From an uncultured Fluviicola sp. (GTDB lineage Bacteria; Bacteroidota; Bacteroidia; Flavobacteriales_D; Crocinitomicaceae), in assembly GCF_902168135.1 (NCBI RefSeq), contig NZ_CABHOL010000023.1:1-33074 (forward strand): DNA of 33,074 nucleotides, in the 5' to 3' direction. Positions within the stretch are counted from its first letter, which is position 1; every line of letters starts with the position of its first letter. Shown one piece after another: positions 1 through 33,074 of this stretch. A program made the position numbers and the translations under genes. The notes under the pieces were generated by a model. The model searched no databases. It saw nothing but the letters and a program-made list of their open reading frames with translations, and was not told the DNA's origin.

Positions 1-2416
1 CTACCACTTTTACGTTGATCGGTCCGCCGTTGTAGTCATATTGTACTTTATCCAGGAATCCGTTCGCAACGATCGAATTCTCGGATGCCGATGTCAACTC
101 CAATTCTCTTCCTCCGTTTCCGGTTCCATCCAAACGCGTGATGCGCGGAGTAAGACCATATGCAGACAAATGCATGGTTCCCATCGCTTCGGGAGCGGGG
201 TCATGCGGAATAAGTTCCAGTACTTTCACTTCTCCAATCGCAGCTTTACGACTTCCCAGGAAAGGTTTCTTCTGTCCGTCCAAAGCAATCGGATCTGTTG
301 GGTCATATGTCTTGTAATTGTTGTAAGCATACGAAATGGCCATGAAGTAATAGCGCTTGAAATTAACCAGACGTCTGTCCCCGGAAGAAAATAAATCTTC
401 TGTGACCCGGAATGAATGCTTGATCCCCAAATCTGCACCTTTCACCTTTTCCACCGGGAATGAAGCCTGAAGGTTTTCATCGTATTCGAAATTCACCAGG
501 CGTTTAATCCCATCCTTGAAATCCACCTGAGCAACCAAACGCGCCTTGGTTGGGTCCTCCAAATCCGATACGCTGACATTGGATTTTTCCAGCTGATAGA
601 TCATATATCCCTGGAACCGGTAATACTTATCTGCATTGGGAACGGAAGTAACAATAAAAGGATCCAATTCCTGGTAATCTTCCTGTTTATTATTCGAAGC
701 GGAGCCGTTGGATAAGTATAGAATCAGTTCATTTTTCAATTCCTGACCGGTTAAATCCGGAGCATGCGGTCCTTCCAGTACCCGGAAACAGTTTTCAAAC
801 AATGCCTGCGCTTTGTCATCTGCCAAACGCAGTGCTTTAACGGATTCAAAAGGATCTCCGCCGGCAGATCTCGCCCAAACCATTCCCACTGTAATATTGT
901 TAACAGCTCCTGGTTTCAGAACAAAAGGCCCTGCAGATTGAAGAAAACGCCGGTCATAGGGTAAATTATTTGCTGTTTGTTCCGTCCATGCAGGTTGTGG
1001 AATTCCATCTGTCCCCCATCCCAATGGATCAGTATCATCCGGGAACATGAAATCACAAGTTACATTCGGATTGACAGTCGGATCGGAAATATGTCCGTTA
1101 CCACCATAGTAAAACGGTGTATTGTCTTTCCACCTTCCTCTCAGGAAATTGTAATAATCTGCCGCAGTGGTTGGATCAGTCTGATTCGGATTTGCTCCTC
1201 CTCCGGTATTGATGTAATACAGGAAACGTCTCATTCCATACCGTTCATTGTCCACAATTCCATCTCCGTAACCGATTCCGTTCAGCGCTTCTCCCGAATC
1301 AATTCCATAAGCATTATCTATTGAATCGTTGTCCTGGTAAGGACCTTCAAAAAAGTCTACTCCGGCAGCGGGCGGACTTGCCCCGTAACCGTAAAATCCC
1401 TGGTTATCTCCGTCTACTGCATCTCCATTGTAGAAATATCCCAATCCACGGTTCACATCGCAGCCCACGTAATCATCAAAAGGATCTCCGAGTGCTCCGT
1501 CCACAAAAACCCCGAAATAGGTATTGTAAAGGGTTTGGGTTCCGCGGTTTATCAATTCGTAGTTGTAGAAGGTCATGTTATTGATCTCATCATTCGTAGC
1601 AAAAGCAAATGCCTGCGCTCGGATTTCCATTCCGATAGGTTCACCCTGGGATTCGGTATGGATATTCCCTTTGTCATTCATGACCCACCACATGTTGAAG
1701 TCTCCGTAAAGAGAAACTCTTCGATCGGTTTTACAATCTTTTGTGCCGTTAATGTCGTACCAGGGATAGTCTCCTTCTTCCCATTCGTAATCGCCGTCAT
1801 TATCCCGGTCATAGAAAGGTGCCAAATGATAATCCTGTCCTTTACTGACATCTCCGTGAGCCGGCCAGTTCTTAATAAATTCAGGAACCTGGTAATTCGG
1901 GAAATTGGCAGATTGAAGGCTTGTACCATTTTGCTGGTCTTGTATTCCGGCATTATACCATGCATCGAATTGTCTTACCAGGTCTTTACTGGAGGTAAAG
2001 TGATTATCGTATTTCAAGCATTCGCTCGGATCGATTTCGGCTGTTCCGTTGGATAAAGGTCCGGTCCAGTAATCTTGTCCCTGACGGTAACGCAAGGCAG
2101 CTAATTTCAACTGTCCGTTGACATCTGTTCCACCCAGCCAAAGCGCCGAAGTGAAAAAACACATGATTTTTGAGTTCTTAGGAATTTCATATTGGGAGAA
2201 ATTTTGACCGGGAACCTGCCATAAATTTCCTGCTGTGTGAACCATTGCACGCACATTGTTGTATTCCATGTACGTAGTTTTATTGGGAGGTGCACAACTG
2301 GCAGCTTTTGTCTGAACAGGGTTTGTTTTACCACCAACTCCTTGATATACCTGGGCTGACAGGGATTTTGAGCCAATTAAAAAACCGATGAGAAGGAATA
2401 ATCGCATTTTCTTCAT
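1..2416 (-). CDS. Large secreted protein, 3' end outside the window (probable T9SS cargo)
   Basis: The minus strand is open from an ATG at 2416 to the left edge, giving about 805 codons without a stop, so the C-terminus is missing. The protein starts with a signal peptide (MKKMRLFLLIGFLIG...LSAQ) with probable cleavage after AQ. The mature part is rich in Asp, Gly, Asn, Tyr and Trp and has acidic loops such as DRDNDGDYEWEEGDYPWYD that resemble calcium-binding loops. I recognise the general type from Flavobacteriales: exported proteins of about 1,000 residues that usually end in a T9SS sorting domain, which here would lie beyond position 1. No catalytic motif is visible, so no function is assigned. 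A terminator-like hairpin lies just upstream (2457-2500), so the gene probably has its own promoter. The frame was checked by translating the whole stretch by eye. Confidence 0.85.
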   Translation of the reverse strand, partial: MKKMRLFLLIGFLIGSKSLSAQVYQGVGGKTNPVQTKAASCAPPNKTTYMEYNNVRAMVHTAGNLWQVPGQNFSQYEIPKNSKIMCFFTSALWLGGTDVNGQLKLAALRYRQGQDYWTGPLSNGTAEIDPSECLKYDNHFTSSKDLVRQFDAWYNAGIQDQQNGTSLQSANFPNYQVPEFIKNWPAHGDVSKGQDYHLAPFYDRDNDGDYEWEEGDYPWYDINGTKDCKTDRRVSLYGDFNMWWVMNDKGNIHTESQGEPIGMEIRAQAFAFATNDEINNMTFYNYELINRGTQTLYNTYFGVFVDGALGDPFDDYVGCDVNRGLGYFYNGDAVDGDNQGFYGYGASPPAAGVDFFEGPYQDNDSIDNAYGIDSGEALNGIGYGDGIVDNERYGMRRFLYYINTGGGANPNQTDPTTAADYYNFLRGRWKDNTPFYYGGNGHISDPTVNPNVTCDFMFPDDTDPLGWGTDGIPQPAWTEQTANNLPYDRRFLQSAGPFVLKPGAVNNITVGMVWARSAGGDPFESVKALRLADDKAQALFENCFRVLEGPHAPDLTGQELKNELILYLSNGSASNNKQEDYQELDPFIVTSVPNADKYYRFQGYMIYQLEKSNVSVSDLEDPTKARLVAQVDFKDGIKRLVNFEYDENLQASFPVEKVKGADLGIKHSFRVTEDLFSSGDRRLVNFKRYYFMAISYAYNNYKTYDPTDPIALDGQKKPFLGSRKAAIGEVKVLELIPHDPAPEAMGTMHLSAYGLTPRITRLDGTGNGGRELELTSASENSIVANGFLDKVQYDYNGGPINVKVV

Positions 2417-5072: not shown

Positions 5073-5651
5073 ATGATGTTTTTAGAGCAAATTCCTTCTG
5101 AAGCAAGACAAAACGGATGGATTGAAGTGATCTGCGGATCGATGTTTTCCGGAAAAACCGAAGAATTGATACGTCGTTTGAAGCGCGTTGAATTTGCACA
5201 GCAAAAACTGCTACTTTTCAAACCTGCCATTGACAACCGTTACCACGAAGAGCAAGTAGTCAGCCACAAAGGTTCTTCCCTGGAAGCAATTCCCGTAAAA
5301 AGTTCGGATGAAATCCTGAAGCATTGGAAAAAAGAGCGCATTGTTGCAATCGACGAGGCCCAATTCTTTGATGAAGGATTGGTAGATGTATGTACTGATC
5401 TGGCCAGGCTCGGTGTACGCGTCATTATTGCGGGATTGGATATGGATTATTTAGGCAAACCGTTCGGCCCGATGCCTTCTCTGCTCTGCATGGCAGAATA
5501 TGTGACAAAAGTACACGCGATTTGCGTTTCATGTGGTAACTTAGCACAGTACTCTCATCGAACCTCCAGGGATGAGGGACAGGTATTGGTTGGGGCGGTT
5601 GAGACATATGAGCCGCTTTGCCGCAGTTGTTACAATAAAATTGAGCATTGA
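5073..5651 (+). CDS. tdk: Thymidine kinase
   Basis: A 192-residue type II thymidine kinase, normal length for the family. It phosphorylates thymidine to dTMP with ATP in pyrimidine salvage. Visible hallmarks are the Walker A loop G22-T29 (GSMFSGKT), the Walker B/catalytic segment IDEAQFF, the lasso-side segment [12 protein letters not shown], and a four-cysteine zinc site (C151, C154, C183, C186). Two ATG codons are adjacent at the start (5073 and 5076); the first is used here and it makes no difference to the fold. Its stop overlaps the start of the MurF-Alr gene by four bases, so the two form a coupled operon. The pairing of tdk with murF-alr is something I recall from other Flavobacteriia. 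Confidence 0.96.
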
Positions 5652-7936
5652 GATTAAATTATTCCATTGAAGCGTGTGCGGAAATTTTTGAAGCAGAAGT
5701 AATCGGTTCAAGCATCGATTCCATTCTGCACGTTTATTTTGATTCCCGCAAAATTCAACAGTCAAAAGGAGCACTTTTTTTTGCTTTATCCGGTCATTCA
5801 AGATCTGGAAATGAATTTATTGACCACGCTTATCAACAAGGAATCCGTTTTTTTGTAATTGCGAAAAACACAACGCTTACTTTCCAACCGGACGCGGTAT
5901 ACTTCCAGGTAGAAGACGTACTTGGTGCTCTTCAAAAATTAGCCAAACATCACCGCAGGAAATTCACTTATCCGGTGGTTGCGATTACCGGAAGCGTAGG
6001 AAAAACAACTTTCAAAGAATGGATTTTCCATTGTATTTCTGACAAATTCAAAGTTGTCCGCAGTCCCAAGAGTTTCAACTCACAGATCGGCGTGGCTTTG
6101 TCTCTTTTGGAAATGCATGAAGGTGCTTCCATAGCATTTATCGAAGCCGGGATTTCGAAGCCGGGGGAAATGAAAATCCTGCAGGATATGATCCGGCCCG
6201 ATTACGGAATCTTTACAGCCTTTGGAAAAGCACATCGCGAGAACTTTGCAAATAACGAAGCTCATTTGTTGGAAAAATGGGTGCTTTTCCGCGAATGCCG
6301 TTTAGCGTTTATCCCACATACATTTGCTGATCTTGAAAACCGTCTTCCCGGAAATTTCCAGGTTTGCCAATCTTACGAGAATCCTCGTTTTCCGGCGGGA
6401 TATAATGGGATGCTGGGTGTTCTGAAAACATTCCTGGCATATCTGCAGTTGGATCCCTTAGAAATTAAAGCCCGAATGGATTCTCTTCCGACGCTTGCAT
6501 TACGCATGGAAGTTTTCGAAGGAATCAACGGGAATACGATCATCAACGATACTTACAACCTCGACCTGGATGCTTTGAGCGAAGCATTGATCTATCAAAG
6601 ACAATTAACTCCGGAAAAAAAACGGATTGTTGTTATTGGTTTATCAGAAAGACATCAGCACGAAAAACTGGAAATCGAAAAACTGATCCAATCCTTCAAC
6701 CCGGACGAATTCCATTTCATTCCCGAAGGAAAATCCATTCCATGGGAAAATTTCCACAATGCGGTTGTCCTGGTAAAAGCGCATCGCGACAGGGCTTTTG
6801 AGTACGAAGTTGCCCGGGGAAAAGCATTGAAACACCGCACGATTGTGGAGATCAACCTGAGTGCTATCAAGCGGAACATTTCGTTCTATCAATCCCGTTT
6901 ACCGAAAGATGTGAAAATCCTGGCCATGGTCAAGGCTTCTTCTTATGGATCAGGCGCTGATAAAGTAGCTCCGTTCCTGCAGCAAATCGGTATCCGGAAT
7001 TTCGGTGTAGCATTTGCCGATGAAGGTGTGGAATTGCGAAAAGCAGGGATCGGTGTTTCCTCATCGATTGTTGTGATGAACCCGGATCCGGAACACAGCG
7101 ACCTGATTATCGAATACCGCCTGGAACCGGCCATTTATTCATTCGAGCAACTGGACGAATTCATTACTACTTTGATCCACCGCAATATTTCTGCTTACCC
7201 GATCCATTTGAAATTTGATACGGGAATGCACCGTTTGGGATTTGCACCAACCGATAAAGAACGTGTTTTGGCAGTTATCAACTCACAACCTGAAGTACAG
7301 ATCAAAGGAATTTATTCGCACCTGGCAGATGCTGATAATCCGAACCACAGTGCATTCACACAAAAACAGCTGGCTTCATTCGATTCGATTGTTTCCTATT
7401 TCCGGGAACACAGCTCCGACTCATTTTCAGCACATATCCTGAATTCGGAAGGCTCTCTGCGCTACCCGGAAAACTGTTACGACATGATCCGTCTCGGGAT
7501 TTCCATGTACGGATATACCGAAAATCCGAAATTGAAAGCTTCTCTTGAAGCAAGTGTTTCCTGGTACAGTTCCATTTCGCAGATCAAGACTGTTCCTAAG
7601 GGGGACTTTATCGGTTACGGGATTTCCTATGAAGCCATGGAGGATATGAGCATTGCAATCGTCCCTGTCGGTTACGCAGACGGTTTCAGACGCAGTTTAA
7701 GCAACGGAAAGGGTTCTGTTTACATTCACGGGATCAAATGTCCGGTGGTTGGCCGCGTTTGCATGGATATGATCATGGTTGATATCAGTTCGGTGAATGC
7801 GAAGATCAATGACACGGTTGAAATTATCGGGCAGAACCAGCCGATGGATGTGTTTGCAAAAGCGATGGAAACTATTCCATACGAGGTGATGACGGGGTTA
7901 TCCAGACGGATGCACCGGGTTTATGTAGAAGATTAA
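5648..7936 (+). CDS. murF-alr: Bifunctional MurF ligase / alanine racemase fusion
   Basis: A 762-residue fusion of two peptidoglycan enzymes. Residues about 1-390 are the MurF-like ligase half, which adds D-Ala-D-Ala to UDP-MurNAc-tripeptide: an ATP loop [13 protein letters not shown], the segment [16 protein letters not shown], and [13 protein letters not shown]. Residues 397-762 are the PLP-dependent alanine racemase that makes D-Ala: the PLP lysine K429 in [33 protein letters not shown], the catalytic Tyr region GYGISYE and the C-terminal [12 protein letters not shown]. The fusion is typical of Bacteroidota, and this copy is somewhat shorter than the roughly 800 residues I expect. The only sensible start is a TTG at 5648 that overlaps the tdk stop as TTGA; the next in-frame Met is inside the ligase fold. 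No Shine-Dalgarno is visible, so translation probably depends on termination-reinitiation from tdk. Confidence 0.95.
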
Positions 7937-28546: not shown

Positions 28547-30100
28547 TCAGATATTTTTCAGCTTGATAAACTTTCTGGTAAATGTTCCGGAATTCTTATG
28601 CACGGTAACAATGTAGTTCCCGGATGGTGTTCCATCCATATAGATAGGGACCAAATGCTCTCCCGGTTGGAATTCTTTTGAGCAGACTTCGCTGATCAAT
28701 GTACCTGCAGTATCGTAAACACGAATGGTTACACGTTCTCCGGCACATTTAAATTTCAGGGTAGTTTGGTCCACACATGGATTCGGGAATATCAACACAT
28801 CATTTTCCATTGATTGCTCGTTCACTCCTAAATTGCATGAATCCAACACAGAAATGAAATTGATGGTTTGTTCGAACATTCCCTGGATGTCGGCAACGTC
28901 TGCCTCAAACCAATCTCTTAAAATCGAAGCATAAATGTCTCTAAAGTCGATTTGCATCGGTACCCCTGCCTGGTCGGTAATCGTATTTGGAATAACCGGA
29001 TTCGGGCCAATGATACCACTGCTGATACACGCACCGAAAAGGAACAATGGTGCCGCATCCCCGTGATCAGTACCATCACTCGCATTGGAAGCAATTTGTC
29101 TTCCGAATTCCGAGAAAGTCATTCCCGCAACCCTGTTTTCAAGCCCCAACAGGCTTAAATCGTTTTGGAAAGCAGCAACTGCGGTGGATACACGGGAAAG
29201 CAAATTTGCATGCACGCCGGTTGCCGGAGCTCCGTCCACGACCTGGGCATCGTGGGTGTCAAAACCGTTTACATTGACAATGTAGATTTTCGTTTTCAAA
29301 CCTCCGGAGATCATTTGAGCAATGTATTTGAGGTTTTTCGAGATCTCATCATTGGGATCATACATGGTTGAAAGTGAATTCCCGGCATTTGCTGCTGCAT
29401 TCACCTGTGCTCCGTAAGCATTTGCCTGCATGATCAGGGTAGACAAGTATTCCATGTGGGCGCCATAATAGGTCCCGTCATTTACTTGTCCCGTTTCAAC
29501 CAGGTTATAACTGTCGAACGGATTATTGATAGCAACGGAAAAGTTAGCTGCTAATCCCTGGCAGGTTGCGGATACTTCGTAACCCATACTGATGGCAAAC
29601 GGATCCGGGTTAGCAGTATCCGGATAGTCATCCGGGAAGTTGGGGAATTCATGGTCCAGGTACCTTCCGAGCCAGCCACGTGTGGCATTTTGGTCCAGCA
29701 TACCGGAAGTCCAGATATCCATCGATCTGAAATGTGAACGGTTTTGTTCCGGATATCCCACATTCTGAATAATGGATAAACGCTCGTTATCAAACATATC
29801 CCGCATTCCTGACATAGCAGGATGCAGTGCATTGGTCGGCGTAATTGTCAGCAATTGATTCTGTGGAATCAGGATATTCGGACGTTGAATTGCCAGGTTG
29901 GCATATTGGTCCAGGGGAACCAAAGTCCCCAATCCATCATTTCCACCATTTAAACGAATAATTACCAGAACCCGGTCTTCCGCAGCTCTGGATGACTTAA
30001 ACAGGTCCTCGGTAACAGCTCCGAATTTAAAGTTCTTTAAAACCAGTGGTGCTCCAATAGATGAAAGCGCGACCGACTGTACAAAATTTCTTCTTTTCAT
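28547..30100 (-). CDS. DUF1501 family exported protein with T9SS type A sorting domain
   Basis: A 517-residue protein. The N-terminus, MKRRNFVQSVALSSIGAPLVL, resembles a twin-arginine signal. The DUF1501 core follows (VLVIIRLNGGNDGLGTLVPLDQY, MSGMRDMFDNERLSIIQNVGYPEQNRSHFRSMDIW, VNGFDTHDAQV, MTFSEFGRQIASNASDGTDHGDAAPLFLFG), a fold related to alkaline phosphatase/sulfatase. The last 75 residues (DVLIFPNPCVDQTTLKFK ... YDTAGTLISEV ... GNYIVTVHKNSGTFTRKFIK) are a T9SS C-terminal sorting domain, so the product is likely cell-surface or secreted. It lies 22 bases after the DUF1800 gene, the usual partner of DUF1501. No substrate is known. Confidence 0.93.
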   Translation of the reverse strand: MKRRNFVQSVALSSIGAPLVLKNFKFGAVTEDLFKSSRAAEDRVLVIIRLNGGNDGLGTLVPLDQYANLAIQRPNILIPQNQLLTITPTNALHPAMSGMRDMFDNERLSIIQNVGYPEQNRSHFRSMDIWTSGMLDQNATRGWLGRYLDHEFPNFPDDYPDTANPDPFAISMGYEVSATCQGLAANFSVAINNPFDSYNLVETGQVNDGTYYGAHMEYLSTLIMQANAYGAQVNAAANAGNSLSTMYDPNDEISKNLKYIAQMISGGLKTKIYIVNVNGFDTHDAQVVDGAPATGVHANLLSRVSTAVAAFQNDLSLLGLENRVAGMTFSEFGRQIASNASDGTDHGDAAPLFLFGACISSGIIGPNPVIPNTITDQAGVPMQIDFRDIYASILRDWFEADVADIQGMFEQTINFISVLDSCNLGVNEQSMENDVLIFPNPCVDQTTLKFKCAGERVTIRVYDTAGTLISEVCSKEFQPGEHLVPIYMDGTPSGNYIVTVHKNSGTFTRKFIKLKNI

Positions 30101-30122
30101 AGTTTCTGATTTTGGTCTACAC

Positions 30123-31733
30123 TTACATTACTTGAGATTCAGGAAGCTGGAACAACCTGTAAAGCACCAGTTCTACCCGTTGGCGGACCGGACCGCTTAC
30201 TGTTGTATTTCCGGGATCTGCTAAATAATCATTGTATTGGATTGTCCATTCAAAATCAGGCTGTCCGTTGGTCAAAATGGATTTCAAAACCGCTTTTTCT
30301 ATCACAGAAACGCCTTTGCAGGTGAAAACGGTCAGAATGTCCTCTATTACCTGGGGAGCGCTGGAAGGTATGCTCAAATTATCCAGGAAATTTAGTGTAT
30401 TGATCTTAAATGAATTCCCATTCACCACTATTCCATTTGTAAGTGTCATCAATGCACTTAAATCAAAACGCAATTTCAACAAACTTGAATTTGCCCATAA
30501 TCGGGAGAAAGCCGGAGTTTGATAATAGGCTGTCCAACCGCCGACGCTCGGAGTTCTTAAGTATTCCATTCCCATCACCTGGGACAAGTAATAAAGGTTC
30601 AGGTAAATTTCATAATTAACCGGAACAGAATAGTTCGGAACCGAACCGGAAGCATTGAGCATTGTGAACAATAATTCCAATGGATTTTTAATAATAGCTC
30701 CGCGCACAGAGATATCGTAAAAATGTTCACTTTTCAGCAATTCCTCTATGACCGGCATGACTTCAAAATTATTGGAAGTCAGCGTAGCAGCCATATCCGT
30801 AATAACGGTACTTTCCACACTCGGTGTCAGGTCGTAATTAACAAACCAGCGGTAAATCTTCCGGCATAGGTACTTAGCCATATCCGGCTGGCTGAAAATA
30901 ATATCGACATAGTTGGCATATTCGGTATTTCCGGAATCAGGAACCACTGCCGAACCGAAATAAGCGCTCAGGGTCTTGCTCGATGTATCGTGGAGAATCG
31001 GGTAAAACACACTGGAAGGCTGACTGGCAGAAGTACTGTACAGGTCCGTAACCGTCCACCCTGTTAAAATTTTTGCACCGGCAGCAACATCTGCTTCGGT
31101 ATAGTTGGTATAATCACCCGTTCCGACCTGCGGGCCTTTCCCCACTGTAAACAATTCCAAAAGCTCACGCGCATAGTTCTCATTCGGAGAGAACTGATTA
31201 TTTGTTGCACCATTGAGGAATAAAAGCATCATCGGATCGATGGTCATGTCTTTTACCAGCTGTTTAAAGTTCCCCAGGCAATTCAAGCGGTACTTTTCAT
31301 GCATTCCATAAACCGCTTTCGCCTCGTTGGTACCGTCCACTCCAAAATGGTTGTCCCAAAACAAACACATTTTCTCCTGGATACTAACCGTGGGTTGGTT
31401 AATCCGCTGCATGAACCATGCTCCCAGCGAGTATAAACGTGCGTTATTCGTTGGTCCGGGATTCGCCGGATAAACATCATTGATCCACGTTGAACCGATT
31501 GTTGTAACTGCTTCGTCGGGGTGGAAAGCCAAGGGTGGTGAAACACTCGGAAGTGTCAATAATTGAGTAACAGTTGCATTCATCCCGTTTGTTACAGCTT
31601 GTGTAATCTGGGTGAGAGTAGCACCAAACATGGTCCTGCGCAATAAATGTGCAGCTTCTGCCTTTGTCCAGGCACCGGTGTATGGCGTTAAACTCAGTGA
31701 AATGGGCTCCTGTACGTTTTCTTCAGGAATCAT
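30123..31733 (-). CDS. DUF1800 family protein
   Basis: A 536-residue protein with the DUF1800 hallmarks: WTKAEAAHLLRRTMFGAT near the N-terminus, MCLFWDNHFGV, FLNGATNNQFSPNENYARELLELFTVGKG (visible as NENYARELLELFT), DVAAGAKILTGWTV, and KYLCRKIYRWFVNYD. No clear signal peptide is seen with the ATG at 31733; the frame reaches a TTG at 31784 but the added residues do not form a signal peptide either. DUF1800 and DUF1501 genes are commonly adjacent in Bacteroidota and Planctomycetota, and the two probably act together at the cell surface. Function is not established. Confidence 0.9.
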   Translation of the reverse strand: MIPEENVQEPISLSLTPYTGAWTKAEAAHLLRRTMFGATLTQITQAVTNGMNATVTQLLTLPSVSPPLAFHPDEAVTTIGSTWINDVYPANPGPTNNARLYSLGAWFMQRINQPTVSIQEKMCLFWDNHFGVDGTNEAKAVYGMHEKYRLNCLGNFKQLVKDMTIDPMMLLFLNGATNNQFSPNENYARELLELFTVGKGPQVGTGDYTNYTEADVAAGAKILTGWTVTDLYSTSASQPSSVFYPILHDTSSKTLSAYFGSAVVPDSGNTEYANYVDIIFSQPDMAKYLCRKIYRWFVNYDLTPSVESTVITDMAATLTSNNFEVMPVIEELLKSEHFYDISVRGAIIKNPLELLFTMLNASGSVPNYSVPVNYEIYLNLYYLSQVMGMEYLRTPSVGGWTAYYQTPAFSRLWANSSLLKLRFDLSALMTLTNGIVVNGNSFKINTLNFLDNLSIPSSAPQVIEDILTVFTCKGVSVIEKAVLKSILTNGQPDFEWTIQYNDYLADPGNTTVSGPVRQRVELVLYRLFQLPESQVM

Positions 31734-31852
31734 AATAGTACGTTTTAGCGAAGGGAATTTAGTATAAAAAGCCGGAACGGACAAGCTAAATTGTTCATCT
31801 TGTGATTTTCAACTAGTTTGTCGGATATTGACCCGGAACTCAACACTATCTA

Positions 31853-33028
31853 TCAATATTTGACCAGTTGAATAGTGCGGGTATTTCCCGTTTCATCCGA
31901 AACATTCACCAGGTAATTTCCGGACTGCCATTCCTGAGCGGTTAATACCGTAATTCCATTTTCCAGGCTGCCTTCTGTTATGCGTCGTCCTGACAAATCA
32001 TACACTGCATAAGTTCCTTTTACTTCACTTCGAATGGTGAACGAATTGTTGGAAGGATTCGGATAAATCAGGACTGAAGACATTGCAAGCTCATGCAATT
32101 TCAAAGCACAATTATTGAGTGCATCAAATGTGGGATCGGCAAATGTAAATGTTCCTCCGTCGGGGCATCTTGCATAGGAAACATCCTGTGACTGCTGCCC
32201 GAAATCTACCTGGTCATAGATCATAGTTCCATCCGAAAGAATGAGTGATTCACCGGCTGAGCTGAGTTTAAAATTCGCATGCAATCCGCTTTGTTCCGAA
32301 TCATTATCCGTCCATATAATCAGTACATCGTTTGCATTTACAGCCGTTCCAAGCGGGATTTGCCATTTCATCAGATTCGAAATATCATCCGAAAGATACA
32401 ATCCCGAAAGATCTTTTGCTGTTGAGGTATGATTGTATAATTCAACCCAGTCATCGTTTTCACCGTTTGAATCGTATGCTGTTAAACCGTTATCAGCCAT
32501 CAGCTCATTGATTACAATATCCCCGGAAGCTGGCAAAACTATCGCAATATTCACCGAATGAAATTCGTGCTCAGCACGAGCAGGACTAAAAATACCTGCA
32601 TTTGTATTTTCAGCATAGATGTAGTATTCCATCACAATTCCATTTAGTACCACATCAGCTCCGTATACATGATCGCCGGCTGATCCGTCATTGTGCATTC
32701 CGTCATCGAACATTTGAATGCGGTTAAAGCGCAAAGGATGCTCCAGGCGATATCCCAGGAAAACACTTGTTTCATTCGAACAAACTGCTGTAACAGTTAT
32801 CGTTTCGCCATAGTTCGGGCTATTATTACTTACTGCATGAGATGAAATTGCAGGAGCTGCTAACAGGTAGTCTGAATTTGACTGAAAGAATGACACGCGT
32901 GATGCCATCAGTTGCTGGATTCCAGGAATGGATGATCCACCTCCCGGTCCGCCGCCGCCTGTTACAGCGGTTGTCATTCCATTTTGGAATTGTGTATAAG
33001 TATAAAACTTGTAAGGATCAGCCTGCAC
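31853..33028 (-). CDS. CotH/lamin-tail protein with T9SS sorting domain, 5' end missing
   Basis: The last 391 codons of a secreted protein; the start lies beyond the real end of the sequence. The first 50 residues (DPYKFYTYTQFQNGMTTAVTGG ... PGIQQLMASRVSFFQSNSDYL) look like the end of a CotH kinase-like domain. A beta-sandwich follows, then a lamin-tail domain (DIVINELMADNGLTAYDSNGENDDWVELYN ... KDLSGLYLSDD ... FKLSSAGESLILSDG) and a T9SS type A tail (VLIYPNPSNNSFTIRSEVKG ... YDLSGRRITEG). CotH proteins are atypical kinases. The open frame continues into the adapter to a false ATG at 33043, giving the sequence MYKRQ, which must be trimmed. It is followed by the DUF1800 and DUF1501 genes in the same direction. 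Confidence 0.9.
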   Translation of the reverse strand: MQADPYKFYTYTQFQNGMTTAVTGGGGPGGGSSIPGIQQLMASRVSFFQSNSDYLLAAPAISSHAVSNNSPNYGETITVTAVCSNETSVFLGYRLEHPLRFNRIQMFDDGMHNDGSAGDHVYGADVVLNGIVMEYYIYAENTNAGIFSPARAEHEFHSVNIAIVLPASGDIVINELMADNGLTAYDSNGENDDWVELYNHTSTAKDLSGLYLSDDISNLMKWQIPLGTAVNANDVLIIWTDNDSEQSGLHANFKLSSAGESLILSDGTMIYDQVDFGQQSQDVSYARCPDGGTFTFADPTFDALNNCALKLHELAMSSVLIYPNPSNNSFTIRSEVKGTYAVYDLSGRRITEGSLENGITVLTAQEWQSGNYLVNVSDETGNTRTIQLVKY

Positions 33029-33074
33029 CTGTCTCTTATACACATCTGACGCTGCCGACGAAGAGGATAGTGTA
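33029..33074 (+). other. Illumina Nextera adapter (not biological)
   Basis: 33029-33047 is the 19-base Tn5 mosaic end (CTGTCTCTTATACACATCT). 33048-33061 is GACGCTGCCGACGA, completing the reverse complement of the Nextera read-1 adapter. 33062-33069 is AGAGGATA, the reverse complement of the i5 index TATCCTCT (known as S503/N503), and 33070-33074 is GTGTA, the start of the P5-side sequence. The read therefore ran through the insert into the adapter. Confidence 0.98.

Follow-up and report, generated by a model that had tools for sequence, protein, structure and literature searches.

A Nextera adapter at a contig end of an uncultured Fluviicola genome and the gene that it interrupts

The DNA analysed here, a stretch of 33,074 nucleotides that we refer to as the window, ends in 46 bases (33029-33074) that raise a simple question: are they part of the bacterial chromosome, or are they a remnant of the sequencing procedure? 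The window is contig C23 of an uncultured Fluviicola sp. genome (G000; 56 contigs, 4.38 Mb, 99.87% complete), and we examined all 112 contig ends of this assembly together with related genomes and public sequence collections.

Identity of the terminal bases

An earlier note had read the final 46 bases as a mosaic end followed by the read-1 adapter, an 8-base index and the start of P5, and exact matches to the oligo, the index and P5 bear this out. All four parts lie on the minus strand. Directly abutting the insert, positions 33029-33061 are identical over 33 nt to the reverse-complemented Nextera read-1 transposase oligo as printed in PMC3906532; they comprise the 19-nt Tn5 mosaic end (33029-33047; AGATGTGTATAAGAGACAG on the minus strand), which is contained in that oligo, and the remaining 14 nt of the read-1 adapter (33048-33061), again an exact match to the printed 33-mer. 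The next eight bases (33062-33069) read AGAGGATA, the reverse complement of TATCCTCT, which is listed as i5 index 503, or S503 (PMC7589761, PMC4712552). The last five (33070-33074; GTGTA) are the beginning of the P5 side, the sequence of which is in print (PMC7589761), and the longest i5 tail of the same genome runs on as GTGTAGATCTCGGTGGTCG. Even at up to three mismatches the window has a single copy of the mosaic end, and 100 shuffles gave no copy; from base composition one expects 4e-7 copies for the 19-mer and 1e-23 for the 46-mer in the window, so that a chance match is excluded. The 46 terminal bases are thus confirmed as a technical sequencing-adapter artefact of a known and well-understood kind, and are no biological feature; a search for evidence against the adapter identity of 33029-33074 found none.

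The minus-strand frame across the junction continues without interruption as ...SAASDVYKRQ-VQADPYKFYTYTQF... A mechanical ORF caller starts this frame at the GTG at 33043-33041, within the mosaic end, and yields an ORF of 396 aa (31853-33043, minus strand), so that the false N-terminus MYKRQ would open a database protein. The frame had thus been named correctly in the earlier note, which placed its start at an ATG in the adapter; the start is the GTG, whereas the ATG at 33045-33043 opens a separate frame that begins MCIRDRC and stops after 23 codons. The third minus-strand frame meets a stop codon within the mosaic end itself. MYKRQ had also been described as a known database artefact. Among the matches listed, we found no literature treating MYKRQ, MCIRDR or their kin as an artefact; the one MYKRQ paper among them is about a fish oestrogen receptor, and four of the papers contain DVYKRQ. 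The claim is confirmed in kind by VUF54202.1, an annotated coliphage protein whose MCIRDT start derives from the same adapter. Two further annotated proteins carry related ends, VUF54226.1 with QMCIRDS close to a cut start, and VUF52988.1 with SYTHLTLPTICSV at its C-terminal end.

One gene on two contigs

The genuine sequence next to the adapter is the 3' part of a gene for a protein with a CotH kinase, a lamin-tail domain and a T9SS tail (31853-33028, minus strand), as judged from Pfam, from the frames of relatives and from an N-terminal half found on another contig; its 5' side is cut by the contig end. In the window's half, Pfam recognises only LTD (lamin tail) and Por_Secre_tail. Ten relatives within the genus have a strong match to it, and in eight of them (56-80% identity) the open frame is 756-771 aa long, compared with 406 in the window. 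The relative G012 has a protein of 756 aa, the frame in G004 is 506 aa, and the closest relative, G002 (94-97% identity), has the gene in two shorter frames; on its contig C106 (L265, 569-605 and 1044-1124; DNA 95-98% identical) two short stretches of the same gene are missing, so that the copy is either broken or wrongly assembled.

We searched our genome with the G012 protein's N-terminal half and obtained a single match, on contig C25 (60-1079, 89% identical), which extends about 5 codons into adapter sequence. Contig C25 starts with a 75-nt i7 tail, adjoining this N-terminal half of the gene. The CotH domain (PF08757) is matched there over profile positions 1-257 of 322, and over 1-306 of 322 in the G012 relative, and the C-terminus of the C25 half is the adapter-made CLLYTSPSPRDS. 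Five of the ten relatives (G001, G002, G007, G008 and G012) were aligned to both contig ends. On the side of the window the alignment stops at 33028 in three relatives and at 33029 in two, one extra base being what chance allows, in keeping with the earlier reading that the real sequence reaches to 33028. On the side of C25 all five alignments start with the first real base, and each of the five relatives has 91 nt between the two real ends. Given the N-terminal half on C25 and this constant spacing, we conclude that one gene became two false proteins; the relatives' longer frames likewise agree with the earlier proposal that the adapter makes a false protein N-terminus.

The gene is followed, within 28547-33028, by a DUF1800 gene and a DUF1501 gene with a T9SS tail. 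Elsewhere in the window, 5648-7936 is a single frame combining Mur ligase domains with an alanine racemase.

Tails, indices and libraries across the assembly

The window is not an isolated case. The mosaic end has 30 matches in the genome, all of them free of mismatches where two were allowed (reversed control, 0), and all 30 are located at contig ends, in tails of 19-77 nt. Three further contig ends carry a partial mosaic end of 16, 12 and 7 nt, while an end with 5 nt of it, which may be chance, was left out of the count. Scoring both the whole and the partial mosaic ends as adapter ends leaves 79 of 112 contig ends adapter-free, and read-through therefore marks some of the breaks and not every one. 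The 30 tails divide into 21 on the i7 side, 8 on the i5 side and one that ends with the mosaic end. The longest i7 tails, at 76-77 nt, correspond to the 66-nt i7 adapter plus 10-11 A's, and several i5 tails end at 46-48 nt. The i7 tail at the right end of C22 lacks one adapter base, as would be expected from one or a few error-bearing reads or from a faulty oligo. False frames were counted in stretches of about 660-870 nt, which makes the frame lengths lower bounds. At 14 of the 30 adapter ends a frame starts in the adapter and continues for 60 real codons or more; in 11 cases this is the MYKRQ frame and in 3 the MCIRD frame. At 8 of the 30, a frame with 100 or more real codons runs into the adapter to give a false C-terminus.

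The tails also carry barcodes. Over the 21 i7 tails we read six different indices, TAAGGCGA (4 tails), CGTACTAG (4), AGGCAGAA (1), TCCTGAGC (7), GGACTCCT (3) and TAGGCATG (2), which correspond to N701-N706 as listed in PMC7589761. Six of the eight i5 tails reach far enough to include an index, and these divide equally between AGAGGATA (3) and TCTACTCT (3), the indices 503 and 504 given in PMC4712552. With one i7 index per library, six i7 indices mean that at least six libraries were pooled. It is very likely that the tails form an accidental provenance record, in which the barcodes reveal the libraries behind the outermost reads of each contig, and that the genome is a pool of six or more Nextera libraries (N701-N706, combined with 503 and 504). 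As a yardstick we used public accession groups with more than one adapter site, drawn from 80 loci listed out of at least 120 stretches, with 12 groups picked by hand, one more added, and two groups left out for an incomplete second i5 index. Among the matches listed, 13 groups have at least two complete i5 indices, and these comprise 11 with one index, one with two indices differing by a single base, and one with two distinct indices (CAMFLH). Compared with these public adapter-tailed groups, which mostly show one i5 index, the present genome is different in carrying eight indices, two of them i5.

The contig ends offer a second view of the assembly. With the adapter tails kept, no two of them overlapped end to end by as much as 20 nt. 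Once the tails were stripped, shared 31-mers linked the starts of C43 and C48 and two pairs of ends with 127-nt shared suffixes. Exactly 127 nt are common to the right end of C17 and the left end of the window, and likewise to the left ends of C20 and C30. This exact sharing fits a de Bruijn assembly and points to a k of 127, in which case the left end of the window would be a repeat break. Window positions 1-127 are the reverse complement of the final 127 bases of C17, and a frame at 2-2467 is cut there. The starts of C43 (L214) and C48 (L032) overlap by 32 nt from the point where the C48 adapter ends, with C43 continuing as genomic sequence, and they would have stayed unjoined because an overlap of 32 nt is too short for a k of 127. 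Genomic sequence in C43 at the place where C48 has adapter is further proof, from within the assembly, of the adapter reading. A k of 77, which we had considered from the tail lengths (up to 76-77 nt), was dropped in view of the exactly 127 nt common to each of two pairs of ends.

Several indices in one genome could in principle also be obtained from an undemultiplexed pool or from repeat libraries of one isolate, as opposed to a co-assembly of several metagenomes. The indices reveal the number of libraries and not the kind of sample, and an exact 127-nt shared suffix would suit a SPAdes isolate run as well. There is, however, a precedent on the metagenomic side in a cross-assembly of 16 metagenomes, trimmed for these same Nextera oligos and run with k up to 127 (PMC6460022), which we cite as precedent and do not claim as the source; since this metagenome cross-assembly also reached 127, a k of 127 is no argument for an isolate. 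We regard the isolate or undemultiplexed pool as possible, though the less probable account; the adapter reading is unchanged by it.

Adapter read-through and its consequences

Nextera adapter sequence is absent from the relatives of this genome and widespread in public data. In the relatives set, the mosaic end is present in 1 of 99 genomes, this being the present one, and in 0 of its 98 relatives; in a sample of the phylum it is found in 7 of 395 genomes, again including the present one, with no control matches. Both genome_contigs and IMG/VR contain the 33-mer in at least 120 stretches each, and it is also present in 26 phage records and 8 plasmid records, so that public MAG, phage and plasmid records include adapter-tailed contigs with the same 33-mer. 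A search of 20,395 E. coli records gave no match. For 80 genome loci, among the matches listed, the outer end of the adapter is no more than 38 nt away from where the database stretch ends at 81 of 85 sites, and at 136-466 nt from it at the other 4. The identical 46-mer, including S503, is present in 14 IMG/VR stretches, near the stretch end in 13 of them and internally in one. Adapter located inside public contigs (L270, 5047-5092; L286, 2154-2186; L076, 3882-3914) probably marks false joins.

These tails resemble Nextera and Nextera XT read-through as described in PMC3906532, both in the oligo itself and in the order of insert, reverse-complemented adapter, reverse-complemented index and PCR primer, and also in the runs of A after the P7 side, which are found there in reads that pass the whole adapter. 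They differ in that the adapter here persists beyond the reads, in an assembled contig. We consider it practically certain that Nextera adapter was carried by read-through into the contig end, splitting the gene. Sequencing of short-insert fragments would have run beyond the insert into the adapter on the opposite side, the reads were probably left untrimmed or incompletely trimmed, and the assembler would have kept the adapter bases as a contig end where genuine coverage gave out, with coverage at the gap presumably low. At the end of the window, an insert ending at 33028 would have been read on through the mosaic end, the read-1 adapter and the S503 index into P5. The chromosome continues, and C25, which opens with the i7-side adapter, follows 91 bases on, judging from the relatives. 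A single CotH-kinase gene is in this way presented as a pair of false proteins, the N-terminus of one and the C-terminus of the other being made by adapter.

The 19-nt mosaic end is a site of Tn5 transposase, and one could thus also imagine that a genuine Tn5/IS50 end, or a construct based on Tn5, had inserted into the chromosome. Native Tn5 ends, however, differ from the synthetic mosaic end, and beyond the site come the Illumina read-1 primer, an 8-nt index and P5, after which the contig ends; the body of a Tn5/IS50 element is absent past the transposon end. Moreover, the sites in this genome are confined to contig ends and show two adapter types and eight indices, and the 98 relatives are free of the mosaic end, which makes such an insertion extremely improbable. 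Still less credible, to the point of being negligible, is the idea that the contig end matches by chance or is truly genomic, for which we found no supporting point and against which stand the vanishing expectation for the 46-mer in the window, the five relatives' alignments that stop at 33028 or 33029, and the identical 46-mer in IMG/VR.

With adapter read-through as the explanation, the biological significance of the terminal bases is small, and the matter is one of data hygiene. Frames made by the adapter can enter databases as seemingly new protein ends, and split genes falsely raise gene counts. The pooling of several libraries, in turn, matters to users who treat the genome as that of one strain.
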